A stretch of DNA of 44,548 nucleotides, taken from NCBI GenBank assembly GCA_029254025.1, contig JAQWYK010000029.1:1-44548 (forward strand), written 5' to 3'. The first letter of the stretch is position 1; each line of letters opens with the position of its first letter. A program made the position numbers and the translations under genes. Below are positions 2,571 to 30,506 of the stretch, one piece after another. The notes under the pieces are model-generated. The model was not told where the DNA came from. It did no database searches and was given only the letters and a program-made list of their open reading frames with translations. Source of the stretch: Crocinitomicaceae bacterium (lineage in GTDB: Bacteria; Bacteroidota; Bacteroidia; Flavobacteriales_D; Crocinitomicaceae).

Positions 2571-3191
2571 CTATTTCTTAAAAAGGTTCATTTTGTTTTC
2601 CTCTCCTTTCATCAATCGTTTGATATTTTTATGATGAGCAATAATAACAGCAAATGAAAGTAAAACAGAAAAAACGCTTAGGTATGTATTATTGTTATCG
2701 AATAGGAGATGAACTAAAATTGGAAAACTTAATGATGCTGCAATTGCCGCGAGTGATACAAAATTTGAAATAATGAAAAAAGCTAAAAAAATAAGGATAC
2801 AAATAGAAGCCGCTTGAGGATGAATTCCTAGGATTATTCCCAGTGATGTTGCCACCCCTTTTCCGCCCTTAAATTTCGCAAATAAAGGAAAAATATGACC
2901 AGCGACAGCAATAATTCCACATGTTAATTGAATATTTATCAAAGCATCACTTCTCCAATCCGAATATCCTGAAATAAATGGAATGAGCACAGCTACTAAA
3001 CCTTTAACAATATCAATAGAGAGAACTATAATACCAGCTCTTTTACCTAAAACACGAAAAGTGTTAGTTGCACCAGCGTTCTTACTTCCTTGCTCACGGA
3101 TGTCTATTCCAAATTTTGATTTTCCAATCCAAACTGCAGTGGGAATAGATCCAAGAAAGTATGCGATTATGATATACAAAGATATTTCCAT
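2571..3191 (-). CDS. plsY: Acyl-phosphate:glycerol-3-phosphate acyltransferase PlsY
   Basis: PlsY is the inner-membrane enzyme that transfers an acyl group from acyl-phosphate to glycerol-3-phosphate, the first committed step of phospholipid synthesis. The 206-residue protein has the family layout of several hydrophobic segments and its signature loops: YFLGSIPTA at the N-terminus, GSKNAGATN at about residues 36-43, and KFKGGKGVAT near the middle. Length is normal for the family. The ATG at 3191 lies 5 bp after the stop of the 1,536-residue exported protein, so the two are very likely co-transcribed. The linkage places phospholipid synthesis next to cell-envelope proteins. Confidence 0.96.
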   Translation of the reverse strand: MEISLYIIIAYFLGSIPTAVWIGKSKFGIDIREQGSKNAGATNTFRVLGKRAGIIVLSIDIVKGLVAVLIPFISGYSDWRSDALINIQLTCGIIAVAGHIFPLFAKFKGGKGVATSLGIILGIHPQAASICILIFLAFFIISNFVSLAAIAASLSFPILVHLLFDNNNTYLSVFSVLLSFAVIIAHHKNIKRLMKGEENKMNLFKK

Positions 3192-3196
3192 AAGTA

Positions 3197-6100
3197 TTAC
3201 TCAAAAATTCGTAAGAATTGGCTTTTGTATGTTGAGCTTTGTGTTGTTTGATACATGAATTTTTTGTCTTTCCGTTTGTCTGCTTTTAAAGCATTTATGC
3301 CCTCGTTTAATTCTTCATCATTCGAAAGGATACTCATAATACCAGTTTTTCTATTGTCGTAATCAAAGAAATATACCGAGCTTCCTGGAAGATCTATCAA
3401 CAATCCAAACCGATCAGGCATAATTGTTCGTTGTTCAAAAAAGGCTTTCAGAGGAACATATTTCATTACTGGCTCACCATAGAAATTAACAATGGCCGCC
3501 TTTTCTGAGGAAGTTCTGATTCCTTTTATATTATCATCATCTGTGAATGAAGAAATACGAAGTCCAGTAAATACGATGGATGACTCAAAACTTTTAGGTA
3601 CTTTTTTAATTTCCTTTCTTAATGTATAATCGGATTTGATTTTATCTGCCGTCTCACGATTTTCCCATTCCACAATAGATTGCTCTAATGTAGTAGAGTT
3701 GAAGTCAACATCCTTAAGATCTTCTAACTGATAAATCTTTTTTCCGACGTTTTCAAAAAGTTTGACGTCCATAGGAGCTTTAATCTTCAGGGTAAGGTTC
3801 ATACTTGTCTCTCCGGTGGATTGGTTGTAATTTACGACTCCTACAGCTTCGCTTTCTAAATTTCCATAGTCCATACCTAGATTGACTCTACCATCTCCAT
3901 TTAGTGAGCAAGACTCAGTATGCAGAGCAATGTAGTTTCCTTTTTCACCTCGATTAATCAATTTGTCTTTGTTTCCGATCTGATATTCTTTGGATATCTT
4001 ATTGTATTGTAGCCATCCAGAGGCTGTAATTACAACTGGATCATTAGGTTCTTCAATGCCAGATAAAAAAGTAGGATAAAGAGTAACTTTATCCAAATCC
4101 TGTGAATTTCTCCAGAGTATACCGGCAGAGATAAAATTACCTTCTAAATCTTTCATTTCTTTCATTACGGGAATTTGAATATTCTTCGGGTTTAAATAGG
4201 AAGAGAAGGCCATCCAATTTTTTTCAAACTTTTCGCAGCTATGATTGATTCGGGTTGCTCCTGTATATCTCAGGTATGGCTCTGATGCAATTAATTTTAT
4301 ATCCCCGTAATAGTCAAATGCCGAACTTAATTTAAAATTTTCATCTTGGTTAACTTTTCCTAATCCTATTGTCTGAAGGGTGGAGTCAAGATAAATCCTC
4401 GTTAAATCGAAATAGTAAATATTACTATCAACATCGATGTATTTATACCTACCACTCGCCTCATACTTTTCTCTTGTTTCTATACTTGCTTGAACATCAG
4501 TAATTTCATGATATTTTGTGATATAGTTCGAAATTATCTTTGCTTTAAATAATGTATCCATCACACCTTTTTCACGAATTACAATCTTCATTGAATCAGG
4601 GAATATTCGGGAGTCAGCAATTTGTACAAATCTAGTTTCATAGCAATATATTGACTTGTCCTCCACACTGTAACGGGCATTTCCTGATCGAAAATTTAAA
4701 GAATCTCTTTTCGGGTCAACGGAGAAAAAGTTCGATTCCACAATATCCATGTCGCTATCAATATTAACATTGTCATCGGGCGACTTGAGCTCTAGTTCAT
4801 CATTATCTAACAACCATTGAAACATATCTATTTTACATATGTAACTATTCATTGGGAATTTGGCTATAGATCCGTCCGAATTCGATTCGAAATTACCTAT
4901 TCGGTCCTTGAAAGAAACATTACTGACGACATTATCAGCTTGAAAAGCAAATTCTTCTTGTGTCAAATCACCCGGTTCTCTATATTTGTTCTTCAACTTA
5001 AAGTAGGAGGTGTCCGAAAGTATATTCCATCGCGTGTAAGAATATTTTTTAGAAAAAAGACTTGCATGACTAAAATTCATGAATCCATTTCCAGTTAATC
5101 CTTTATTGTCTATAGTTGCAGTTCCTTGAAGGTTTGCTTCTTGATTGAAAAAGTAGATAAGTTCTTTACTTGATTTCACATTTAATTTACCCTTTCTAGG
5201 CAAGTATGTAAGGTAGACATCTTCACCAACTACATCTGGATATTCAACTCCAATGTCTTGAGGTGAATTGGTGAACTTAGCATAGCCGAATGTAGAATCA
5301 GGAAGAAATGTAAATAGACCTTTTGACGAAGATGTGGAGGTAATAAATTTTAAATCCCCAGACCCTTGTAAACCATTATTTGACAATATTATTTTGTTAA
5401 AGAATTTACCTCCATTATCATAAAAATCATAGCCCGACTCTGGGATATCCTTTGTTAGCCCAAGCGAGTAGTCGTTCATGAGTCGAATTGAATCTTGAAA
5501 TTTTGGAAAAATTCCTCCAGATACTAAAGCGCCACCAAAGCGTAAAGTTCTCTCATTGAATGCATGTAGACTATCTAATTCGAAAGGGTTTATTTCAAAA
5601 TAAAATCGTGTTGAATCATAGGCGCCTAAATAAAGTTTTTTATAATTATAAAAAACTTTTGTTTTTTCTTTTGAGCTTAGGAGTGGGTATATATCGAATG
5701 ATTCACCTTTCTTATTTCCTGATCTATTGTCTTTATGGTCAACGAATAATTCACCTTTGAGACCATACAAACTAGAAGAAATCAATATTGGAGTACCCCC
5801 ATCTTCTTTTCTTAATGGATTTGCTCGAAAGAATGCGATATCAGATTCAATAATACTAAATTTGTTATCTTCATAATAATAATTACCATCATTCACTCGT
5901 ATTTCCCATTTGCCTGAGTTAATCCATCCATCAAAAACGAAATCTCGATTTTGTTTCACTAAAATTCTGGAATTATCAGGAAAAATCATAGTGTTTTTCG
6001 AGAATGAAATTGGAACAACATCTACAGCATCTACAACAAGATTAAAGTTGCTCAAATCCAAGGTTCCAAAGGATTTCAATTTAGAACGGTCTTGATTTCT

Positions 6101-7807
6101 TTTAAGCATCCGTTCTTTGTACGCTCTTAAATCTTTATCAGCTTTTAATTGATCTGGGGAGATACCATCTAGATATATTGGTATTAAATTAGCCGAAAAG
6201 GATATGTAGTCAAAATCTTTCTTTCCTGAATTAGCTTCGACAAAACGAATTAGTTTGTCAGTAATAATAACAATTTGCTTTTCAGAATCATAGGTAATAA
6301 AACCTAGTGATGCGAGTTCAATTAGTTTAAAACTGCATTCTTCGATGGTTTTACCAATTGCAGTCGCAGCCTCGCCTGATGTTATTGTATATTTATCATA
6401 TTTATAACAATATTTGTATAGGGCAGCTAAAGGGTTTACCTTTTCCAATGCTTGTTGCTTTTGATAAAGTTCAACATTATAATAATCGAATGACTCAAAT
6501 CGGGCAGATCGTTTCTGCTCTGAGGTCGAAAAATTATAAGTTAGGTCAAGAATATTTTCTTTGGGTTTCCAGATTATTTTTTCAACATACATTTCAAGCT
6601 TATGGTATGTATTTATAAAAGGAGCACTTGAAATTCCAGAATTTCCTCTAGTCAATTCTAATTCCTTTCGATCCCTGAAAAATATAAAGTTCAAGCCTAA
6701 ATGAGTTATGGAGTCTTCTTTTCCGATATAAATAGTTGTTTTTGCCCTATCTGTAAGTAATTGTTTTTCACTGACTCTAACCACATTTGATGCTGATTTT
6801 AAAAATAAGTCACCGTTTTGGTAGAATCGAAGCGTTGCAGGGTTTGATTCAGAACCGATTCCGACAAATTCAGAACCTTGCATTGAAAAGCCTCCGAAAT
6901 AATCAACGTCTTCAATTAGATTTTTGATTTCATACACTTCTTGAAAAGAGACAAACTGAGGAAAGTTTAATTGTTTATCCTCGTTAAAATTGCCTTTCAT
7001 TGATCGGTCTACAATTTTACCAATTGCAATGGAATTGATAAACGGGGAGTGCATCATTGCTGTATCACAAGTTAAAACAGTTCCCCTTACAGAGACCATA
7101 AACGATTTTAATTCTGCAAAATGTAAACTAGGGTCTAATCCAACCTTCTCCCATGATATTGTACCACCTTCTCCGAAAAATCGTCCTTTTATAATGTCAA
7201 AATAACCGGAAGTATTCTTTACTACAATACTGTCCGAAAAGTTAATATTTTCGCTATTTTTCCCTCGATTAATTATACGACAAGCGAGTTTTCCATCGGT
7301 TAGGATTAATTTAATTTCATCTTCGTATTGGAAATTATATCCCCCGCCATTGAAGTGCCAATTGTAGTTTGAATTACTTCCAATAATTCGATTCTTCAAG
7401 AAATTTTCTGAAATAGAAATGAAGTCTTTAAATTTTTTTGTGTTTTTACCTTCAAGTAATTCTATTAATGCATCGTGCCATGCTTCAAAACTTTCTTTAC
7501 TTTGATTGTCTCGAAGTAAACTGTAAGCGGAAAAAACATAGCCATATAATAGTGGATAAGGAGTCAGGCGTTTTTCAAGAATTCTATTTGCAGTAGATAC
7601 GATTTTCGAAAAATCAGAGTCACTTAATTTTGAAGAAATAAATATGGCAGGAAGATCGTTTTGTGTGAATTCTTTCAAATCAAAACTGGTACTCTCTTTC
7701 ATGAGTTTATCAAATTCTTTAACGAATTTTTCTCGATCACCAGATAAAACTTGTGAGAAACTTGAGAAGCCAATTAGCAATGTAATAAGTAGTATTATGT
7801 TTCGCAT
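3197..7807 (-). CDS. Very large exported protein of unknown function (1,536 aa)
   Basis: I do not recognise the family. The protein starts with a clean signal peptide (IILLITLLIGFSSFSQ), so it is exported by Sec. No later transmembrane segment, lipobox or type IX sorting domain is apparent. Most of the chain alternates short hydrophobic and polar residues with many Gly, Asp, Ser and Tyr, as in beta-rich proteins. Two stretches resemble each other: near residue 806 (NGLQGSGDLKF) and near residue 899 (KGLTGNGFMNF), each followed by a Ser/Lys-rich strand and a DS(T)F/Y segment. A third, weaker copy (YLRYTGATRINHSC) lies near 1,180. The helical N-terminal 110 residues differ from the rest. It sits 3 bp after prmA and 5 bp before plsY. 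A structural or assembly role in the envelope is inference only. Confidence 0.9.
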   Translation of the reverse strand: MRNIILLITLLIGFSSFSQVLSGDREKFVKEFDKLMKESTSFDLKEFTQNDLPAIFISSKLSDSDFSKIVSTANRILEKRLTPYPLLYGYVFSAYSLLRDNQSKESFEAWHDALIELLEGKNTKKFKDFISISENFLKNRIIGSNSNYNWHFNGGGYNFQYEDEIKLILTDGKLACRIINRGKNSENINFSDSIVVKNTSGYFDIIKGRFFGEGGTISWEKVGLDPSLHFAELKSFMVSVRGTVLTCDTAMMHSPFINSIAIGKIVDRSMKGNFNEDKQLNFPQFVSFQEVYEIKNLIEDVDYFGGFSMQGSEFVGIGSESNPATLRFYQNGDLFLKSASNVVRVSEKQLLTDRAKTTIYIGKEDSITHLGLNFIFFRDRKELELTRGNSGISSAPFINTYHKLEMYVEKIIWKPKENILDLTYNFSTSEQKRSARFESFDYYNVELYQKQQALEKVNPLAALYKYCYKYDKYTITSGEAATAIGKTIEECSFKLIELASLGFITYDSEKQIVIITDKLIRFVEANSGKKDFDYISFSANLIPIYLDGISPDQLKADKDLRAYKERMLKRNQDRSKLKSFGTLDLSNFNLVVDAVDVVPISFSKNTMIFPDNSRILVKQNRDFVFDGWINSGKWEIRVNDGNYYYEDNKFSIIESDIAFFRANPLRKEDGGTPILISSSLYGLKGELFVDHKDNRSGNKKGESFDIYPLLSSKEKTKVFYNYKKLYLGAYDSTRFYFEINPFELDSLHAFNERTLRFGGALVSGGIFPKFQDSIRLMNDYSLGLTKDIPESGYDFYDNGGKFFNKIILSNNGLQGSGDLKFITSTSSSKGLFTFLPDSTFGYAKFTNSPQDIGVEYPDVVGEDVYLTYLPRKGKLNVKSSKELIYFFNQEANLQGTATIDNKGLTGNGFMNFSHASLFSKKYSYTRWNILSDTSYFKLKNKYREPGDLTQEEFAFQADNVVSNVSFKDRIGNFESNSDGSIAKFPMNSYICKIDMFQWLLDNDELELKSPDDNVNIDSDMDIVESNFFSVDPKRDSLNFRSGNARYSVEDKSIYCYETRFVQIADSRIFPDSMKIVIREKGVMDTLFKAKIISNYITKYHEITDVQASIETREKYEASGRYKYIDVDSNIYYFDLTRIYLDSTLQTIGLGKVNQDENFKLSSAFDYYGDIKLIASEPYLRYTGATRINHSCEKFEKNWMAFSSYLNPKNIQIPVMKEMKDLEGNFISAGILWRNSQDLDKVTLYPTFLSGIEEPNDPVVITASGWLQYNKISKEYQIGNKDKLINRGEKGNYIALHTESCSLNGDGRVNLGMDYGNLESEAVGVVNYNQSTGETSMNLTLKIKAPMDVKLFENVGKKIYQLEDLKDVDFNSTTLEQSIVEWENRETADKIKSDYTLRKEIKKVPKSFESSIVFTGLRISSFTDDDNIKGIRTSSEKAAIVNFYGEPVMKYVPLKAFFEQRTIMPDRFGLLIDLPGSSVYFFDYDNRKTGIMSILSNDEELNEGINALKADKRKDKKFMYQTTQSSTYKSQFLRIFE

Positions 7808-7810
7808 TGT

Positions 7811-8647
7811 TTAAAGTTTTATGAGTTTAAGCACGGCCCATTCTTCCTTGTTAAATGTGGCTTCATGACGGAACCCTGCGTGTTCTGCTGCATCAATAAG
7901 TTCTTTGGTATCTGTCACAAAAAATCCACTGAGGTAGAGTTCTCCATCAGTTTTGGATCTTTCCGAATAATGCGGAAGGTGAATTTTTAGCACGTTTTTA
8001 TTAATATTTGCTATGATAATATCAAAATTTCGTTCAGTTACACAATCAATATCCCCTAGACGCATGTCTGCTGAAGGATATCCGTTTCGAGCGCAGTTTT
8101 CATGTGCGTTTTCTACGGCACCAGGCTCAATATCCGTGCCTATTACAATTTGAGCCCCTCGTTTGAGTGCCAGAATGGCAAGAACACCTGTTCCTGTTCC
8201 TGAGTCAAGGACCTGTAGTTGAGTAAAGTTTTTTTTACATAGAATACTCGCTAGTAACCAAGTTGTTTGGTGATGTCCTGTTCCAAATGACATTTGAGGC
8301 TGAATAATTACCTCCTCCTCGAATCCTGTTTGGCATTCGTGAAATGGTGCTCGAATAATTAGCTTGTCATCTATAGCAACGGGTTGAAAATCGGCTTCCC
8401 AGGTGGCATTCCAATTTTCTTCTAGAATTTCCTTTTTACTATAATTGACACTTACATCATTTGCTGTTAAGAGTTCGAGGATATAGATCAGTTTTCCTTC
8501 ATTGAATAAGGGTGCTTGAATGTAGGCCTGTAAACATCCGTCATTTTCAGTAAAACTTTCAAAGTCAATATCGGACAATTGAGCGAGTGCAATTTCTGTC
8601 CAAGGTTCTTTTGGGTTAATATCTAATGTGAGCTCGATGTAATTCAT
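7811..8647 (-). CDS. prmA: Ribosomal protein L11 methyltransferase PrmA
   Basis: PrmA methylates lysines and the N-terminus of ribosomal protein L11 in the cytoplasm, using S-adenosylmethionine. The 278-residue protein has a short N-terminal substrate-recognition domain and a class I methyltransferase fold: MSFGTGHHQTT at about residue 120, the SAM-binding loop LDSGTGTGVLAI, the acidic ribose-binding GTDIEPGAVENA, and IIANINKNVL, the motif IV position that is NPPY/NI-like in this family. Its ATG overlaps the tpiA stop codon as ATGA (8644-8647), so translation is probably coupled. The next gene starts 3 bp after its stop. Confidence 0.95.
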   Translation of the reverse strand: MNYIELTLDINPKEPWTEIALAQLSDIDFESFTENDGCLQAYIQAPLFNEGKLIYILELLTANDVSVNYSKKEILEENWNATWEADFQPVAIDDKLIIRAPFHECQTGFEEEVIIQPQMSFGTGHHQTTWLLASILCKKNFTQLQVLDSGTGTGVLAILALKRGAQIVIGTDIEPGAVENAHENCARNGYPSADMRLGDIDCVTERNFDIIIANINKNVLKIHLPHYSERSKTDGELYLSGFFVTDTKELIDAAEHAGFRHEATFNKEEWAVLKLIKL

Positions 8648-9399
8648 GCAATCTTTTGTGCTTCTATGATGGCGCTGAAGTCAGCACATTGGAGGGAAGC
8701 GCCTCCAATCAAACCTCCATCAATGTTCGGTTGTGAAAATAAATCTTGTGCATTTGATGCTTTGCAACTTCCGCCATACAGAATAGAAGTGGAGACAGCA
8801 ACTTTCTCTGAATACTTCTTTTGTAGGAGCGAACGAATAAACGCATGCATTTCTTCTGCTTGCTCAGTGCTAGCAGTTTTTCCCGTACCGATTGCCCAAA
8901 CAGGTTCATAAGCGATTACAACCTGTTTGAATTGGGCTTCTGATAAATGAAATAAGCTATTGTTTAACTGTTTTTCAATCACGCTAAAATGAAGGTCTGC
9001 ATCTCTTTCTTCCAAGTGTTCACCACAACAGAAATAAATTGTAAAACCGAGCTCGACGGCTTTTGAAACCTTCTTTTTAAGAAGAAGATCTGTTTCGTGA
9101 AAAAGATCTCGTCGCTCAGAGTGCCCTATGAGCACGTGTTTTACCTCCAACTCGCGGAGTTGCTTAAAACTGACTTCACCTGTAAAAGCTCCGCTGTCTT
9201 CGGAATAGCCATTTTGAGCACCAATAATGAGATGATCTCCATATGCTTCGATCAATGATTTTAGGTATATATTCGGCGAAAAGACCACAATTAGTTCTTC
9301 TACGTTCTTAGGCTGTTTTGCTAATTGATTAGCCAGGTTGTTGGCTTCTTCCCACGATAGGTTCATTTTCCAGTTACCTGCAGTTATTTTTTCTCTCAT
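8644..9399 (-). CDS. tpiA: Triose-phosphate isomerase
   Basis: TpiA interconverts dihydroxyacetone phosphate and glyceraldehyde 3-phosphate in glycolysis and gluconeogenesis. With the start at 9399 the protein is 251 residues, the normal length, and begins MREKITAGNWKMNL. The active-site residues are all present: Asn9 and Lys11 in GNWKM, His93 in IGHSERR, Glu165 in AYEPVWAIGTGKT (the flexible loop), and the phosphate-binding LYGGS and GGLIGGASL near the end. An upstream ATG in frame (9435) would add 12 residues unlike the family and overlap the previous gene further, so I prefer 9399. That start forms an ATGA overlap with the stop of the DoxX-like gene. Confidence 0.96.
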   Translation of the reverse strand: MREKITAGNWKMNLSWEEANNLANQLAKQPKNVEELIVVFSPNIYLKSLIEAYGDHLIIGAQNGYSEDSGAFTGEVSFKQLRELEVKHVLIGHSERRDLFHETDLLLKKKVSKAVELGFTIYFCCGEHLEERDADLHFSVIEKQLNNSLFHLSEAQFKQVVIAYEPVWAIGTGKTASTEQAEEMHAFIRSLLQKKYSEKVAVSTSILYGGSCKASNAQDLFSQPNIDGGLIGGASLQCADFSAIIEAQKIA

Positions 9400-11279
9400 T
9401 CTTTCGTGAAAATATTTTTGTTCAACCAATCCCAAGATGGAGTTGAGCGAAAAGGGAATTTACCTTTGACAACTCCCTTCTCTAAAACCATTAATGTTGG
9501 ATTCGAGCGCGTGATAGCTTTAATCTCAGTTTCGTCATTGATACAGTATGGGATTATCAATCCTGTTTCCTCCCGGAATTGTTCAATTTCTTCTTTCGCA
9601 GCAGTGGTCATTAAGAGCATAGGAATTCCCAGTTGATCGGCCTGTTCTTTGATGCCAAGTAGGCGTTGAACCCTGCTGAAATCTGCTGTTTTTATGTTGC
9701 GACTAACCACTATGAAAATACGTTCACTATCCAAAATGTAGTCGAGCAGATTGATTTCATCAGCAAACTCATTCAGACGCATCGACGTATCGCCAATTAC
9801 ATACTGAGACGTATCCCAATCTTCAGCAAAAAATTCTTCTAAGAGTTGCGGGTATCTGTTTCCACTTGCTTTCTCTATGACATCTATGAATGGAACCGTA
9901 TTCTCAGCGGTAAATGCCTGAACAACGGGTAATTCTCGCTCTACTTTGGTCAGGGAGGCTATCGTCATCGTTGGATTGAACTGCTCCGTAATTGATGCTA
10001 GTTTTCCAGCTTTTAAGGTAATTGTTTTGGTTTCAAGATGTTCCCAAACTCCTTCCTCCTCCCATATTTTTGAAGCCATATACTCCTCTTGAGTGAAGGT
10101 TTTATTTTCACCCGATTTCAGATTTTTATAAGTTAACACGTTCGTGTATTCGCCCGGGATTCCATCGCTCATTTTTTCACGAATATCGCTTCCTATCGCG
10201 TATGGTCTGTAATCCTTAATCGGATTATACATCAGCACATACAAGGTGAATAGGGAACAAATAACGGTTACTAAGAGTGCTGCACCCCAGTCATTTCCGA
10301 GTAAAACTCCACCAGATCGCTTAATCCATAGTGCGGCTAATATGCACGCAAGTCCAAATAAAATTGGGAGTCCCCACCCAAAAATCCACGAAAAGATTGA
10401 GATAAACACGAGCGAAAAGAAGGTCATTAATGCATTCTCTCGAAGATTGTTGGCTGAAATTCTTTTTTGGCTCACGAAAATCAAGATTACCAAATAGAGT
10501 AGGATAATATCCTTCCAAAAAGATTCATTAGGAGTTAATGATCGGCCTAAGGAACCTTTCATGGCGTCCCCGAAACATCCGCAATCATCCACACATTGTG
10601 GTTTCTTTACTTCTGAAACAGTCACATAAGTAGCTGATTGCTCAAGGATTTTAATGTCTTCGGACGTATCAGCTGCTTCCAGCTTAATTTGTGCAATAGA
10701 TTCATTGAGTGAATACGTATCTACATCGACAAACGTTTTGGATGGATTACATTCCTTGGTATGCCAGGTTAGTAAAGTAAAAAATACCATCATACCAAGC
10801 ATCAACCAGCTGGTTAATCGTATTTTTCCTCCGATAATGGCTAATATACCGAGTACGATTTCCAAGATGCAAATAATAACGCTCAAGGCTAAGGCATGTT
10901 CTATTAGATATTCCAATGTAAATGTTTCCCAACCCAGAAATTCTTTTACACGGTAAGCCAGCGCACCATCTTCAAAATATTCTTCTAATTTGTAGGAAAA
11001 TCCGAGTGGGTCATTTGCTTTGATTAGTCCTGAAACAATAAATAAACCTCCTACAAGCACTCGCGCAACATAAGAAAACATCATCCAACCTTGAAAAATG
11101 GTTATTCCTAATAAACCTGCAATGAACAACGCATAACCAATGATTTGAAATAGCAATTCGGAAGATTTAAAGGATTCATGGTAGCCAAACAAGAGAAAAG
11201 TAAGACCTGTTAGGTTGATAAGCATGAAGATGATATTCAGAATAAATGATTTTCCGTAAACATTTTTAATTGCTACCAT
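9396..11279 (-). CDS. DoxX/MauE-like membrane protein with thioredoxin-like C-terminus (BT_3928 type)
   Basis: This 627-residue inner-membrane protein matches the Bacteroidetes BT_3928-type family, which is regularly found beside tpiA. The N-terminal third has four or more hydrophobic helices with a DoxX-like GLIKANDPLGFSYKLEEYF segment. A periplasm-like insertion carries the cysteine cluster CVDDCGCFGD near residue 230, the MauE/DoxX hallmark. More helices follow at about 255-350. Residues about 520-627 resemble a thioredoxin-like fold (RIFIVVSRNI, NPTLMVLEKGVVKGKF) but lack a CXXC pair. A role in redox or disulfide handling at the membrane is inference. It starts 6 bp after the DUF1599 gene and its stop overlaps the tpiA ATG. 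Confidence 0.85.
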   Translation of the reverse strand: MVAIKNVYGKSFILNIIFMLINLTGLTFLLFGYHESFKSSELLFQIIGYALFIAGLLGITIFQGWMMFSYVARVLVGGLFIVSGLIKANDPLGFSYKLEEYFEDGALAYRVKEFLGWETFTLEYLIEHALALSVIICILEIVLGILAIIGGKIRLTSWLMLGMMVFFTLLTWHTKECNPSKTFVDVDTYSLNESIAQIKLEAADTSEDIKILEQSATYVTVSEVKKPQCVDDCGCFGDAMKGSLGRSLTPNESFWKDIILLYLVILIFVSQKRISANNLRENALMTFFSLVFISIFSWIFGWGLPILFGLACILAALWIKRSGGVLLGNDWGAALLVTVICSLFTLYVLMYNPIKDYRPYAIGSDIREKMSDGIPGEYTNVLTYKNLKSGENKTFTQEEYMASKIWEEEGVWEHLETKTITLKAGKLASITEQFNPTMTIASLTKVERELPVVQAFTAENTVPFIDVIEKASGNRYPQLLEEFFAEDWDTSQYVIGDTSMRLNEFADEINLLDYILDSERIFIVVSRNIKTADFSRVQRLLGIKEQADQLGIPMLLMTTAAKEEIEQFREETGLIIPYCINDETEIKAITRSNPTLMVLEKGVVKGKFPFRSTPSWDWLNKNIFTKE

Positions 11280-18681: not shown

Positions 18682-21600
18682 TTATTTCAAATCTTGACCC
18701 TCTATCCAAGGAGCGCCTAGTGCTTCCAATTGTTTTTCAAGTGCTGGAAGTTCTACTTTTCGAATTTGTTCTACCTGAACGCGTGCGTCTTCCATCAATT
18801 TTTTCGCATTTGATAAGCTCTTTTGATGGGTCGGTGTTGGACCATAGGTAGATCCCGAAGTTCCGGTACTTGCAGCACCTAGGAAATCTCCTATCGTAGG
18901 ATAAGGACTTTTTTCACCTACTTCATCGCGTGCTTTACTTCCTGATAATGTGTAATCTAGTTGTGTCATCTTCTTGTGCAAGTCAAGCATGGCTTGATTC
19001 AGCGTAGGATTCATTTTTGGAGACCTTTCGTAGGCTTTCATCATCAGAGTTAAGCGCTCTTTGGCATTACTAAATGTGGTATTCAAGGCAGTTAACTTTC
19101 CATACATTTCTTCCACGTCTTTCCAGAATGCAGCAACTTCAGATGGATTCGCGCCTTCCAAAGCACCTTTGCGTAAAGGAACAACCTCGAAGGTTACTTT
19201 TTCACTAATAGCAGAAAGTACCCCGTCGATTTCCTTCATCAACTGTCCTTGGTATTTTCCAGGAGCAGCCATCGCACCGTCATAACTTCTGTTCACGTTA
19301 GAATTCGTAATGGCCCCTTTGGAGATAGTGCGTAGGTCCCAGCTTACGCGCTGAATACCTTTGCTGTTGGTGGCTTTTTCGCGTTGGATGATATTTCCAT
19401 CCTTATCCATGATGTAGAGCCAAACTGCTGGTTTTTCTTGATTCTTTTCTTTCTCTAATGCATCCCATCCTGGAAAGGGAACTTCTTCGTTCTTTTTGAT
19501 TTTGTCCTTTTCGGCTGCTTTGCGCTTGTCTTCCAGCGTAGAGTATTTTTCTTTCAAGAAGTAGGTAAACTCTACACCAAATGGCGGGTTATCCGCAACA
19601 AAATAGTTGTCTCCTTGAGAAGCTACCTTACCACCGCCTAGAACGCGTTGTTGCTTGTACCAATATCCTTTACGAGGTGTGTACAGTGTCGCTTCTTTAT
19701 CCAAGGTTCCCGCAGAAACTTTTCGTAAGGCGGAATAATCATCTAGTACATAAAAACCGCGGCCAAACGTCGCTAAAACTAAATCATTTTCTCTTTTTTG
19801 AATCGCTAAGTCACGCACAGGAATCGTAGGTAATCCACCTTTCAATTGAATCCATTTTTTACCTCCATCGTTACTGTAAAACACACCGAACTCGGTTCCT
19901 AAAAACAGTAAATTCTTTTCCTTGTGATCTTGGACAATCCGCCAGCATAAGTGCTTTTCAGGTAAGTTGTTCACGAGTGATACCCATGTCTTTCCTTTAT
20001 CAGCACTCTTGTAAACGTATGGCGCATAATCTCCATATTTATGATTGTCAAATACAGCATATACTGTATTCTCGTCGTATAAATCAGCTTTTATGTCATT
20101 TACAAAAGCAGTGGCAGGTAGACCCGGAAGCTGCCCTACATCGATTTTGCGCCAATGTTGTCCACCGTTTTCGGTCACTTGTATCAATCCGTCGTCTGTA
20201 CCAGCATAAATAAGACCTGACTTTTTAGGAGATTCTGCAAGTGAAGTAATGGTGCTGTAATTCGACATCGCATAAACGTCCCAAGGGTTGTCCCAGCTTT
20301 GTTGCTTACCGAAAATTGGGGTTTCCAAACGCTCAATGTTCTTCGTTAAATCTTTTGAGATGGGCGTCCAAGAATCACCGCGATCGGTTGACTCCCATAC
20401 GCGCTGAGAGGCAAAATAAAGATGAGTGGGGTTATGTGGACTTACCAAGATTGGTGCATCCCAGTTGTGACGCTCGATGGGGTCTCCAAGGTCAGGCTGT
20501 GGTTGAATGTACACATTCTCTCCTGTTAATCGGTCATGACGCATTAAATTACCTTGCTGCCACTGGGCGTATACGATGTTTGGATTTCCTGGCTCAGTAG
20601 CAGGTTGGTGACCATCTCCTCCAAGGACAACGAACCAATCTGAATTCCGAATTCCGTGCACATTGTCAGTGCGCGATGGACCGCCTTGTGTATTATTGTC
20701 TTGTGTTCCCCCAAATATATTGTAAAACGGAGCGGCATCGTCGAGCGCCAACTTATAAAATTGAGTTAAGGGTAGATTCCCTATGAAATTCCATGTTTTG
20801 GTCTGGTCGTACGACTCATAAAGTCCGCCATCAGTTCCTACCAGCAAGTAGTTTGGATCTGATTTACGAAAAGCCACCGCGTGATTGTCAACGTGTTTCG
20901 TACTTTCATTCATGCGTACGAATGTTTTTCCACCGTCGTTGGAAATTTGCATGTAATTATCGGCAAAATAGATGCGGTCAAAATTGTGTGGGCAAGCATA
21001 CAACTCTTGGTAATAGTGAGGCCCCGTTCCTCCAGCGATGGCATCTGACATTTTTGTCCAGCTTCCACCTTGATTACTCGTACGATAAACGCCTCCTTTA
21101 CGACGGTCCAATTCTATCGCAGTATAAAGCACATCAGGTTGTTGGGGCGACATGGCCAAACCAATTTTCCCCATATTTGAGGATGGAAGGCCATTAGAGA
21201 GTTTTTCCCATGTTTTTCCACCATCACGTGAACGGTGAATTCCACTTCCAGGTCCACCTCCCATATAGGCTGCAACGGTACGTTGACGCTGCCAAGTCGC
21301 CGCATAAAGTACGTTCGGGTTTCTTGGGTCAAGCAGCAAGTCGGTTGCTCCTGTCCATTCATCAACAGAAAGTACGTGTTCCCACGTTTTTCCGCCATCG
21401 GTTGTTTTGTAAATCCCGCGGTCACCTCCAGAGGACCATAGCGGTCCCTGTGCAGCTACCCATACGATATTAGAGTTTTTGGGATGAACGATAATTTTAG
21501 AGATGTGCTCGGAAGCTTTCAATCCCATATTTTTCCATGAATTTCCACTATCTTCACTGCGGTATACTCCATCACCGAAGCCAATATGACGTCCACCATT

Positions 21601-21957
21601 GTTTTCTCCTGTTCCTACCCAGACTATTTCTGGATTTGAAGGATCTAGAGTCACACATCCCGTTGCGTAAGAAGTTTGCTTTTCAAAAATAGCAGACCAT
21701 GTTGTTCCTGCATTTTCTGTTTTCCACACCCCTCCTGAACCCACGGTTACGTACCACACGTTTTCATTCGATGGATGAATCGCGATGTCGGATATTCTCC
21801 CAGACATGAATGCGGGACCAACACTTCGGAACTTCATACCCGATAAATGGGAGGACTTTAATTCATTGGTTTTAGCAGTGCTTGTTGACTTTTTCTGTCC
21901 GAATGCCAAGGAGGCAAGCAAGACGCCAGCAACAAGAGTAAAGGAATTCAATTTCAT
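18682..21957 (-). CDS. Large secreted VPS10/sortilin-like BNR-repeat protein
   Basis: A 1,091-residue exported protein with a signal peptide (FTLVAGVLLASLAFGQ). Residues about 40-740 form a many-bladed beta-propeller: at least ten Asp-box/BNR motifs are visible, such as SEDSGNSW, TTDGGKTW, SRDGGKTW, SNDGGKTF, STDRGDSW, SADKGKTW and SNDGGKKW. A conserved ending GRGFYVLDDYSALRK closes the propeller, followed by a beta domain (WLYIMDKDGNI, GIQRVSWDLR) and a helical tail. Despite BNR motifs there is no sialidase FRIP signature, so catalysis is not claimed. ATG 21957 gives a better signal peptide than the in-frame ATG six codons upstream. Its stop lies 13 bp from the convergent BtuF-like gene. Confidence 0.9.
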   Translation of the reverse strand: MKLNSFTLVAGVLLASLAFGQKKSTSTAKTNELKSSHLSGMKFRSVGPAFMSGRISDIAIHPSNENVWYVTVGSGGVWKTENAGTTWSAIFEKQTSYATGCVTLDPSNPEIVWVGTGENNGGRHIGFGDGVYRSEDSGNSWKNMGLKASEHISKIIVHPKNSNIVWVAAQGPLWSSGGDRGIYKTTDGGKTWEHVLSVDEWTGATDLLLDPRNPNVLYAATWQRQRTVAAYMGGGPGSGIHRSRDGGKTWEKLSNGLPSSNMGKIGLAMSPQQPDVLYTAIELDRRKGGVYRTSNQGGSWTKMSDAIAGGTGPHYYQELYACPHNFDRIYFADNYMQISNDGGKTFVRMNESTKHVDNHAVAFRKSDPNYLLVGTDGGLYESYDQTKTWNFIGNLPLTQFYKLALDDAAPFYNIFGGTQDNNTQGGPSRTDNVHGIRNSDWFVVLGGDGHQPATEPGNPNIVYAQWQQGNLMRHDRLTGENVYIQPQPDLGDPIERHNWDAPILVSPHNPTHLYFASQRVWESTDRGDSWTPISKDLTKNIERLETPIFGKQQSWDNPWDVYAMSNYSTITSLAESPKKSGLIYAGTDDGLIQVTENGGQHWRKIDVGQLPGLPATAFVNDIKADLYDENTVYAVFDNHKYGDYAPYVYKSADKGKTWVSLVNNLPEKHLCWRIVQDHKEKNLLFLGTEFGVFYSNDGGKKWIQLKGGLPTIPVRDLAIQKRENDLVLATFGRGFYVLDDYSALRKVSAGTLDKEATLYTPRKGYWYKQQRVLGGGKVASQGDNYFVADNPPFGVEFTYFLKEKYSTLEDKRKAAEKDKIKKNEEVPFPGWDALEKEKNQEKPAVWLYIMDKDGNIIQREKATNSKGIQRVSWDLRTISKGAITNSNVNRSYDGAMAAPGKYQGQLMKEIDGVLSAISEKVTFEVVPLRKGALEGANPSEVAAFWKDVEEMYGKLTALNTTFSNAKERLTLMMKAYERSPKMNPTLNQAMLDLHKKMTQLDYTLSGSKARDEVGEKSPYPTIGDFLGAASTGTSGSTYGPTPTHQKSLSNAKKLMEDARVQVEQIRKVELPALEKQLEALGAPWIEGQDLK

Positions 21958-22128
21958 AGTTAATCTGTTTAGCAAACGACTAATTTAACCACAAAATTTT
22001 AAGTAGAACTAATTTTGAGTTATGAACGACAGAATGGCAATAGAAAAGACAGAAAATAGAGCTTTCGCGACACTTAAAGGTCATTTTTCTTAAAATGAGA
22101 AAGGCGTAAATTCTTACCGTCTTTTTCC

Positions 22129-28427: not shown

Positions 28428-30506
28428 ATGAATCTAATCTCCGAAATACCTTTATGGTGGTTGCCAATTATTGCCATTCTGGCTTTGGGTGCATCTCTTT
28501 GGTACTATGCCAAAAAAGATTGGAAAAAGGAAATTAGTACATCTCTCCTTTATACGCTTGTTGGATTACGTTTTTTAAGTCTGTTTTTAATTGAACTATT
28601 GTTGCTTGGAATCCTTCTGGAATCGACTACATACAAAGAAGAGAAACCCATATTACTGACGATAGTGGACGATTCAAGTTCAATGAAAAATTATCAAGAC
28701 AGTAGTAAAGTATTCTCTTCGATAACGCATTACCAGCACGAATTGAGAGACCAATTTGGCGACAAATTCGACTACGAGTTTATTGGGTTGAACGGGCATT
28801 CGATCGCCCTTGATTCGCTTAACTTTAATGGCACGTCGACTGATTTAGATGCTGTATTAAGTACCGTGTATGACCAATATTACAACCGAAATCTTGGAGG
28901 AATAGTATTGATTTCGGATGGAAATTACAATGCCGGAGCAAATCCAGTCTACACAGGAGAGAAATTTAAGTTCGTTCCGATTTACACATTAGGAGTAGGC
29001 GATACGATTCAAAAAAAGGATATATTAATCAATACTGTATTGACCAATGATATCGCATTTTTAGGGAATCAATTTCCCATTGAGTTGGGTATTGAAGGAT
29101 TTCAAGTGAGTGGACAACGCACACAAGTAGGTATTTATCGGGCCGGAAAATTATTACAACAAAAAGAAGTAGTTTTTTCGAACGAAGGCTATGACCTGCA
29201 GAAACTCAATTTTTTTTTGGAGGCAGATCAAATTGGGTTTAATGAATACAGCATTGAGCTGCGCTCCATTTCGAATGAGTCAAATTATCAGAATAACTCG
29301 AGGTCGATTTATGTTGAGGTCTTAGATGCACGGAGTAAAATTTTGCTCTTAGCAAATGGCCCACATCCCGATATGGGCGCGATAAAGAACACACTCGTGC
29401 AAGACCAAAATTATGAAGTGATTACCGCCAGGGATGTAGAGAGTTTAGAAACAATTAAGAACTATGATTTAATTATCTGGCATGAGCCAGAAAAAGGTTT
29501 TTCAGAAGCACTGTTAAATCGATTAGAAACTGAAAACAAGTCGGTTTGGATGATTATAGGACCATCAACTTCGAATGCTGTTCTTCGTCAGTTACCTTTG
29601 GGTATTACATCTACGGTTGGGCGTCAGACAGATGAGGTACAAGCAGCGCTCAACGAGCGATTCACGCGTTTTGAAATATCTCAAAAAGCGAAGGAAGAAT
29701 TAGCGAATTTCCCTCCATTGGTAACACATTATGGTGCCTTGACTTTAAATAAGCCTGCTGATGTGCTGTTATATCAACGGGTTGGGCCAGTGAAGAAAAA
29801 AGATCCTCTCTTTTTCTTTGTGACTGGGCAAAATACTAAGTTTGGAGTCACCTATGGGGAAGGGCTTTGGCGGTGGAGAATAGCGGATTACTTGCGGAAT
29901 CAAAATCATCAGGTATTTGATGAGTTAGTGAATAAAACGGTACAGTATTTAATGGTGAACGCTAACTCAAGTAAATTGCGGATTACGCTTCCGAAGGAAT
30001 TTCTAGAAGGAGAGGAAGTTATTCTAGGAGCTTCTTTCTACAACGAAAGTATGGACCCGATAACAACTGTTCCTATTAAGCTAAAGCTGAAGAATAGTGA
30101 AGAGGAGTTAATCTATGATTTCAAACCGAATGAGTCTAGTTATGAGCTCCGCCTGGGAGCATTGGAAGCCGGGACATATGGTTGGGAAGCTTCGGCTACT
30201 TTTGAAGGTGAAACGTACTCCAAAACTGGAAGCTTTTTAGTCCGAAAATTAGAGCTCGAGGCAATGAACACAAAATCCAATTTCATGTTATTGAATCAAT
30301 TGAGTGTGAACTCTGGAGCAGAATTTTTTCTGCTCGAGCAGCATAAGGAGTTATTGAAAGAGTTGAGTTTACGTGAGGATATGGTAACCGTCTCATCACC
30401 TTCGACGGCCTATTCGAAATTAATCGATTATTGGTGGTGGCTAGTGCTTATTGTATTGTTTCTAACTTCAGAATGGTTCATTCGCAGATATTCTGGGGCA
30501 TATTAA
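28428..30506 (+). CDS. Membrane protein with von Willebrand A-like domain
   Basis: A 692-residue protein with two N-terminal transmembrane helices (WWLPIIAILALGASLWYY; LVGLRFLSLFLIELLLLGILL) and one at the C-terminus (WWWLVLIVLFLTSEWFI). Between them, residues about 75-200 form a VWA-like domain with a metal-site DDSSSM motif and VLISDGNYNAGANP. Residues about 300-420 resemble a glutamine-amidotransferase-like fold without its catalytic Cys (ILLLANGPHPDMGAIKN, DLIIWHEP). The architecture fits the BatA/CoxE-independent 'VWA membrane protein' group of Bacteroidetes. Its stop is 3 bp from the stop of the convergent J-domain gene. Confidence 0.85.
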   Translation: MNLISEIPLWWLPIIAILALGASLWYYAKKDWKKEISTSLLYTLVGLRFLSLFLIELLLLGILLESTTYKEEKPILLTIVDDSSSMKNYQDSSKVFSSITHYQHELRDQFGDKFDYEFIGLNGHSIALDSLNFNGTSTDLDAVLSTVYDQYYNRNLGGIVLISDGNYNAGANPVYTGEKFKFVPIYTLGVGDTIQKKDILINTVLTNDIAFLGNQFPIELGIEGFQVSGQRTQVGIYRAGKLLQQKEVVFSNEGYDLQKLNFFLEADQIGFNEYSIELRSISNESNYQNNSRSIYVEVLDARSKILLLANGPHPDMGAIKNTLVQDQNYEVITARDVESLETIKNYDLIIWHEPEKGFSEALLNRLETENKSVWMIIGPSTSNAVLRQLPLGITSTVGRQTDEVQAALNERFTRFEISQKAKEELANFPPLVTHYGALTLNKPADVLLYQRVGPVKKKDPLFFFVTGQNTKFGVTYGEGLWRWRIADYLRNQNHQVFDELVNKTVQYLMVNANSSKLRITLPKEFLEGEEVILGASFYNESMDPITTVPIKLKLKNSEEELIYDFKPNESSYELRLGALEAGTYGWEASATFEGETYSKTGSFLVRKLELEAMNTKSNFMLLNQLSVNSGAEFFLLEQHKELLKELSLREDMVTVSSPSTAYSKLIDYWWWLVLIVLFLTSEWFIRRYSGAY

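Follow-up and report, generated by a model that had tools for sequence, protein, structure and literature searches.

A large exported orphan protein of Bacteroidia, encoded behind prmA, with predicted beta-hairpin runs and a likely winged-helix domain

What does an exported protein of 1,536 residues do in the middle of a bacterial housekeeping operon? This question is raised by a gene, called X here, on contig JAQWYK010000029.1 of a Crocinitomicaceae bacterium (assembly GCA_029254025.1). We analyzed positions 1 to 44,548 of this contig, and this whole stretch of 44,548 nucleotides is referred to below as the window. The initial annotation described a signal-peptide protein lying 3 bp from prmA and 5 bp from plsY, and the frame coordinates confirm its size and both gaps, with all three genes on the minus strand. 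We regard X as a real gene because long open frames recur in hundreds of genomes, while a search of its own genome gave one match. The evidence supports well that X and its relatives in the class Bacteroidia, exported proteins of about 1,450 to 1,860 residues, make up a family that has no name. Support is moderate for an architecture in which a winged-helix domain separates two long series of consecutive beta-hairpins, most of them antiparallel.

None of the described families that we tested is convincingly related to this one in sequence, a conclusion that the searches support well and that agrees with the initial failure to place the protein. The X protein had no match at E values up to 1 in Pfam, NCBIfam or the PDB sequences, nothing was found in PADLOC, and its single match in PHROGs had an E value of 0.059. 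When 30 diverse relatives were scanned singly against Pfam and NCBIfam (E up to 1), the matches were weak, scattered and mostly confined to one member each, the strongest being Fe_dep_repress in Pfam (E 0.0059) and a valine--tRNA ligase model in NCBIfam (E 0.0022). Among the weak Pfam names, SgrR_N, Fe_dep_repress, TrmB and MarR_2 are winged-helix families (match positions were not shown). A profile search of the PDB with the X alignment likewise gave weak winged-helix matches, and all others had E values of 0.7 and above. No relative was found in a viral-contig search with a 14-row X alignment. Literature searches worded around the neighboring genes and the envelope gave no recognizable paper on X, and a paper under another name could escape such wording.

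The architecture was examined by coevolution. The loci used for this purpose and for synteny are not a random sample, and come from best-scoring and hand-picked diverse genomes. Open frames that were the same over residues 200-500 were treated as duplicates and removed, as were X frames under 700 residues, which left 246 unique loci; 5 rows with 40% or more gaps were then discarded to give an alignment of 241 rows (effective number 201 at 80% identity). An earlier linear analysis, in which signal-peptide and ancestry effects dominated, was replaced by pseudolikelihood couplings. These were computed in overlapping blocks of 220 columns, so that pairs more than 220 columns apart are invisible, and 10 of the 12 blocks ended at 53-96 of 100 iterations. 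Segments of seven consecutive residue pairs were scored by their summed z.

Over all separations, antiparallel segments outnumbered parallel ones by 28 to 6 at z > 14 and by 7 to 0 at z > 16. Antiparallel segments at z > 12 numbered 82 of 33,492 at separations up to 28, 4 of 43,760 at separations of 29-60, and 7 of 178,198 beyond. With the threshold raised to z > 14, the same three ranges held 27, 1 and 0 antiparallel segments and 6, 0 and 0 parallel segments. There are 70 short-range hairpin candidates with a summed z of 10 or more, some of them overlapping, between residues 107 and 1473, and their centers are about 14-18 residues apart in densely covered stretches. Given how often distant segments reach z ≥ 10, chance would account for about 14 of the 233 found at short range. 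The hydrophobicity of paired residues had a mean correlation of 0.20 at the inferred register (positive in 48 of the 70 hairpins), compared with -0.01 and -0.07 when the register was slid by one and 0.08 when it was slid by two. These coevolving antiparallel strand pairs lend support to the beta-rich character that had been ascribed to the protein.

As a control, the same code was run on 168 prmA sequences (effective number 156), where it found many distant segments, not checked against a prmA structure. At z > 14, there were 19 parallel and 12 antiparallel segments at separations above 28, and 9 and 17, respectively, at shorter ones. The scarcity of distant segments in X is therefore informative, within the 220-column limit. 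A parallel beta-helix was also considered and is disfavored by the excess of antiparallel segments at z > 14, though parallel segments are enriched at short range as well.

Several results weigh against the hairpin reading. First, the short-range enrichment of parallel segments is seen at z > 12 (23 at separations of 8-28, 6 at 29-60 and 5 above 60). Second, several strand pairs score nearly alike both ways, so that direction is unsettled pair by pair; for example, 839-845 pairs with 862-868 in antiparallel fashion at 14.2, and 838-844 with 865-871 in parallel fashion at 14.4. Third, hydrophobic alternation on the strands is modest (0.30 versus 0.25 in random segments, about p 0.002). Finally, an AlphaFold2 model of residues 580-1536, built from X and a relative from Fluviicola sp. 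(locus L002, 53% in the best segment), had a mean predicted local distance difference test (pLDDT) score of 26.9, at which an open groove, chained beta-sandwiches and a barrel are indistinguishable. The partly repeated character noted at the outset is visible but faint. In a profile self-comparison, residues 787-841 pair with 878-931 (P 6e-5, probability 64%) and residues 577-624 with 1040-1084 (P 1e-3, probability 20%), and nothing stronger was seen.

Between the two runs, residues 459-518 or thereabouts likely form a winged-helix domain. This assignment takes together three lines of evidence that are each modest. First, a 42-sequence X profile matched winged-helix chains of the PDB through its positions 446-508 (E 0.044 at best). 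Second, residues 432-548 were modeled from two sequences, and the best of five models has pLDDT block means of 80-90 over residues 462-511 and the element order helix-strand-helix-helix-strand-strand, which is the winged-helix order; a second model is similar in mean pLDDT (61.0). Third, Foldseek rows for the domain model include MarR, NtcA/FNR, proteasome-lid and methyltransferase chains (best E 0.0067), and the top match of VIA-align is the MarR-type regulator OhrR (Z 8.3, root-mean-square deviation 2.0 over 62 residues). Against the assignment, the other three models are poor (mean pLDDT 35-37), Foldseek gave no match at or below E 0.001, and VIA-align itself cautions that Z values close to this one, about 8, may be common; with both tools, folds that are not listed stay possible. 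In several of the longer relatives (about 1,650-1,860 residues), the X profile match is broken near profile position 455, at the start of the winged helix, and in others it is broken near profile position 308.

An N-terminal export signal in X is well supported by hydropathy and conservation. The N-terminus is the sole strongly hydrophobic segment, with a best 19-residue Kyte-Doolittle mean of 2.05 at residue 4, and past residue 40 this mean is at most 1.18. Glutamine at the end of the signal peptide is usual in the phylum, and Q19 is close to invariant, being kept by at least 90% of 42 aligned X sequences. The region that follows, up to residue 145, is probably helical, as suggested by its sequence pattern and by i/i+4 couplings such as 102/106, 133/137 and 136/140. 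Toward the other end of the chain, Cys1191 and Cys1300 occur together in 162 of the 241 alignment rows, one occurs alone in 1, and neither occurs in 78 (233 rows have letters at both positions). This pattern is compatible with a disulfide. On a FastTree tree, however, each cysteine changes once in what amounts to a single joint event, and we have downgraded the disulfide evidence for this reason. A periplasmic or outer-membrane place for X would be consistent with the signal peptide and the paired cysteines.

The genomic setting of X is ordinary. Besides prmA and the tpiA-like gene (named from its sequence, with no family search made), the operon holds a DUF1599 gene and a gene for a BT_3928-type protein. 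Of the 208 loci whose upstream sequence extends for 900 bp or more, 148 have prmA before X on the same strand, never farther away than 119 bp, and 166 have prmA or tpiA there. On the other side, plsY is found within 1.5 kb 3' of X in 116 of the 227 loci with at least 900 bp downstream, 90% of them within 73 bp. Both the prmA and plsY counts depend on the cut-offs of the hidden Markov models. Median distances from X, measured between stop-to-stop frames, are -4 bp for prmA and +4 bp for plsY. X is thus strongly linked to prmA, more loosely to plsY, and as a whole to an old tpiA-prmA housekeeping operon; its inheritance at this one operon locus is well supported. The linkage to plsY, seen at only about half of the loci, is weaker than was first claimed.

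Because the operon is a housekeeping one, the position of X alone names no function. Linkage to plsY tells little about the function of X and does not in itself indicate phospholipid synthesis. The initial interpretation is supported in part, and the place in the envelope that it suggested would be consistent with features of the protein itself.

The distribution of X was charted in several sets of genomes, with its own genome counted in every figure. A single-sequence search found X in 36 of 39 near genomes, mostly at the prmA locus. Profile searches found it in 275 of 299 genomes of the order (194 of the 203 of good quality) and in 324 of 395 genomes of a class draw. A phylum draw, made up differently, gave 15 matches in 395 genomes, of which 14 are confident and belong to the same class; the fifteenth (G291, another class) is short, marginal and confined to the winged-helix part. 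A single-sequence version of the phylum search gave X in 11 of 296 genomes. The order, class and phylum draws are not comparable, and no overall frequency is claimed. In the searches of the phylum, a single class yielded the family, which is near universal in some groups and absent in others. Beyond the phylum, it was sought only with a narrow peptide-pattern scan, which gave one locus. The initial annotation had staked itself on the lack of a confident match to a characterized family and on the presence of the gene in close relatives, and it holds on both counts, since no convincing match was found and near relatives keep X, mostly at this locus.

Genomes without X were informative about the operon. 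When 20 of them were searched for prmA, 15 had a full-length or nearly full-length match, and the other 5 (G022, G033, G035, G045 and G389) had at most weak, partial matches to methyltransferases. Three of these 5 are from the order of the window (G022, G033 and G035, the last a draft), and in them prmA and X are missing together, which may reflect an assembly gap. Other genes follow prmA at the 15 loci that carry it without X. As read by eye from the sequence, these include a ClpS-like frame (L226, L231 and L232), an Mpl-like frame (L225 and L233), and a small frame followed by a RecJ-like one (L230 and L234), and locus L235 ends shortly behind prmA. In L237, plsY directly follows prmA at 21 bp, so X is cleanly missing there.

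Two loci are unusual. Locus L203 (G354:C42:308223-317482) carries two tandem X genes, with 62 bp between their matched stretches. In G001, the one genome of the same genus that was searched, the X gene (L054, on the 4,871-bp contig G001:C93) is just 24-29% identical to that of the window, below most other genera of the family. This contig is short, with no other operon gene recognized on it, and the TamB and OstA frames of G001 are near in length to those of G000. Possibly, L054 represents a contaminating contig or a replaced gene.

What, then, might X do? Our first choice, which we put forward tentatively, is an elongated periplasmic beta-sheet scaffold or conduit with hydrophobic cargo. In the periplasm, the hairpin runs would build one long curved beta-sheet, or two, with the hydrophobic face as a core or groove. 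X would then serve between the membranes as a scaffold or conduit for hydrophobic cargo, which may be lipid, lipopolysaccharide (LPS) or unfolded outer-membrane protein. The winged helix would offer a docking surface; DNA binding seems implausible outside the cytoplasm. In 95 of 121 strand windows, some of them overlapping, the hydrophobic face is the more conserved one (entropy 1.39 versus 1.78), a comparison that has no control; it speaks somewhat for a buried core or a groove and against a barrel wall that faces lipid, without being decisive. Set against the conduit are three points: we infer its function, cargo, location and partner alike; most genomes of the phylum draw are without X, which must therefore be dispensable in some lineages; and the X-bearing genome separately encodes TamB, AsmA-like and OstA proteins.

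Four other explanations were weighed. X could be a string of ordinary beta-sandwich domains in a cell-surface or periplasmic binding or enzymatic protein, a reading to which we give a limited chance. Such domains also contain short-range antiparallel hairpins, and the winged helix makes the chain modular. Of the 28 invariant columns, those that include Asp, Ser, His, Asn and Thr leave room for a catalytic set, but half (14) are Gly. In addition, few distant strand pairs are available to close sandwiches, whereas many were found in prmA by the same code. A very large outer-membrane beta-barrel, or a barrel-associated assembly protein, is unlikely. The consecutive antiparallel meander is a barrel topology, and a signal peptide with no further strongly hydrophobic segment fits as well. 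However, lipid-facing residues of barrels usually vary, and the hydrophobic face of X is the more conserved one in most strand windows (a comparison without a control). The close spacing of hairpin centers leaves long loops no room in the dense stretches, and several distant relatives end in charged tails.

It is also doubtful that X belongs to the AsmA/TamB or Lpt groove proteins and has diverged too far for its sequence to reveal this, even though it shares their size class and, by prediction, their hairpin-rich topology. In hhalign comparisons, the 241-row X alignment gave P values of 0.085 with TamB (20 rows), 0.52 with AsmA (19 rows) and 0.12 with OstA (17 rows), compared with 1.3e-4 for TamB versus AsmA as a control. 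The best early alignment with OstA, over the similar-looking stretch 1044-1133 (P 0.097), was gone when the X alignment was deepened. The reach of the method is limited, since OstA recognizes neither AsmA nor TamB (P 0.033 and 0.45), so that the method would overlook proteins that have kept a fold in common but no trace of it in sequence. Finally, it is very improbable that X just rides along in the housekeeping operon and has a niche role outside the envelope, such as that of an exported structural or adhesion protein: the rest of the operon is housekeeping and 15 of the 20 tested X-less genomes retain full prmA, but retention of X in the order is very high and no type IX secretion C-terminal sorting domain, for which NCBIfam includes models, was among the six NCBIfam families that the scan of 30 members listed (E up to 1).

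Table 1. Coordinates in the window of gene X, its neighbors and the features assigned to its protein
Feature	Position	Strand	Basis or remark
Gene X (name used here)	3197..7807	-	ATG start, 1,536-residue exported protein
prmA	7811..8647	-	Upstream operon neighbor of X; Pfam and NCBIfam matches
plsY	2571..3191	-	Downstream neighbor of X; Pfam and NCBIfam matches
tpiA-like gene	8644..9435	-	Further upstream of prmA; linked in relatives too
Signal peptide, residues 1-19	7751..7807	-	End placed by eye
N-terminal region, residues 20-145	7373..7750	-	Probably helical; i/i+4 couplings and sequence pattern
First run of coevolving beta-hairpins (predicted), residues 148-416	6560..7366	-	Coevolution
Likely winged-helix domain, about residues 459-518	6254..6433	-	PDB profile matches, model, structural matches
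Second run of coevolving beta-hairpins (predicted), residues 584-1346	3770..6058	-	Coevolution; none listed between 1203 and 1269
C-terminal region, residues 1347-1536	3200..3769	-	Further candidate hairpins at 1414-1473
Cys1191	4235..4237	-	Co-occurs with Cys1300
Cys1300	3908..3910	-	Co-occurs with Cys1191

Three other frames of the window were noted. A minus-strand frame at 1-2535, 3' of plsY and ended by the window edge, starts with a signal peptide; with its TPR-like and beta-propeller-like stretches, it is reminiscent of PorE-type proteins of type IX secretion (no search made). A protein of 1,097 residues with a Sortilin-Vps10/BNR-type propeller region is encoded at 18682-21975 (minus strand). 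A frame of 692 residues at 28428-30506 (plus strand), right behind an AlaDh_PNT_N gene, gave no hit in Pfam at E 1e-5.

While the operon position of X is unremarkable, X is a striking orphan that is large, conserved, exported and, by prediction, hairpin-rich. An exported protein of 1,500 residues that occurs in about nine of ten sampled genomes of the order and matches no family in the libraries used represents a large unassigned part of these bacteria's biology. A recent report describes TamL and TamB as essential in Flavobacterium johnsoniae, a member of the phylum (PMC12045153).

The known systems closest to the scaffold or conduit that we propose each resemble X in part. The likeness to MarR/OhrR-type and proteasome-lid winged helices is limited to the predicted fold of the mid-chain domain, which in X sits in an exported protein. 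Members of the TamB/AsmA superfamily are periplasm-spanning beta-groove lipid transfer proteins. They resemble X in size (about 1,500 residues, with a TamB frame of 1,539 residues in the same genome), in their hydrophobic N-terminal segment and in a hairpin-rich chain, which for X is a prediction. X differs in its internal winged helix and in having no profile similarity to them, and no TamB or AsmA family was listed at E up to 1 in the Pfam scan of 30 X members. In the OstA/LptA/LptD_N beta-taco (PF03968), antiparallel strands are joined by short turns, and residues 1044-1133 of X look similar by eye. The difference is that this family has no significant profile match to X, in comparisons where no distant OstA relative served as a positive control, and at E 0.001 PF03968 matches another gene of the same genome (contig C24) and not X. 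By profile comparison, X thus appears unrelated to TamB, AsmA and OstA, and we file it under none of them. By analogy, X may nevertheless work as these conduits do, as its size, export and hairpin-rich topology would fit. A bolder proposal, and an unlikely one in our estimation, is that X adds a third kind of beta-groove conduit across the periplasm to the AsmA/TamB and Lpt bridges, independent of both and with no sequence relation to either. A winged-helix hub for docking would sit in mid-chain, and much of Bacteroidia would use the conduit for lipid, LPS or outer-membrane protein traffic. If X is a groove-type conduit, it would add a route by which lipids and LPS may cross the periplasm outside Proteobacteria.

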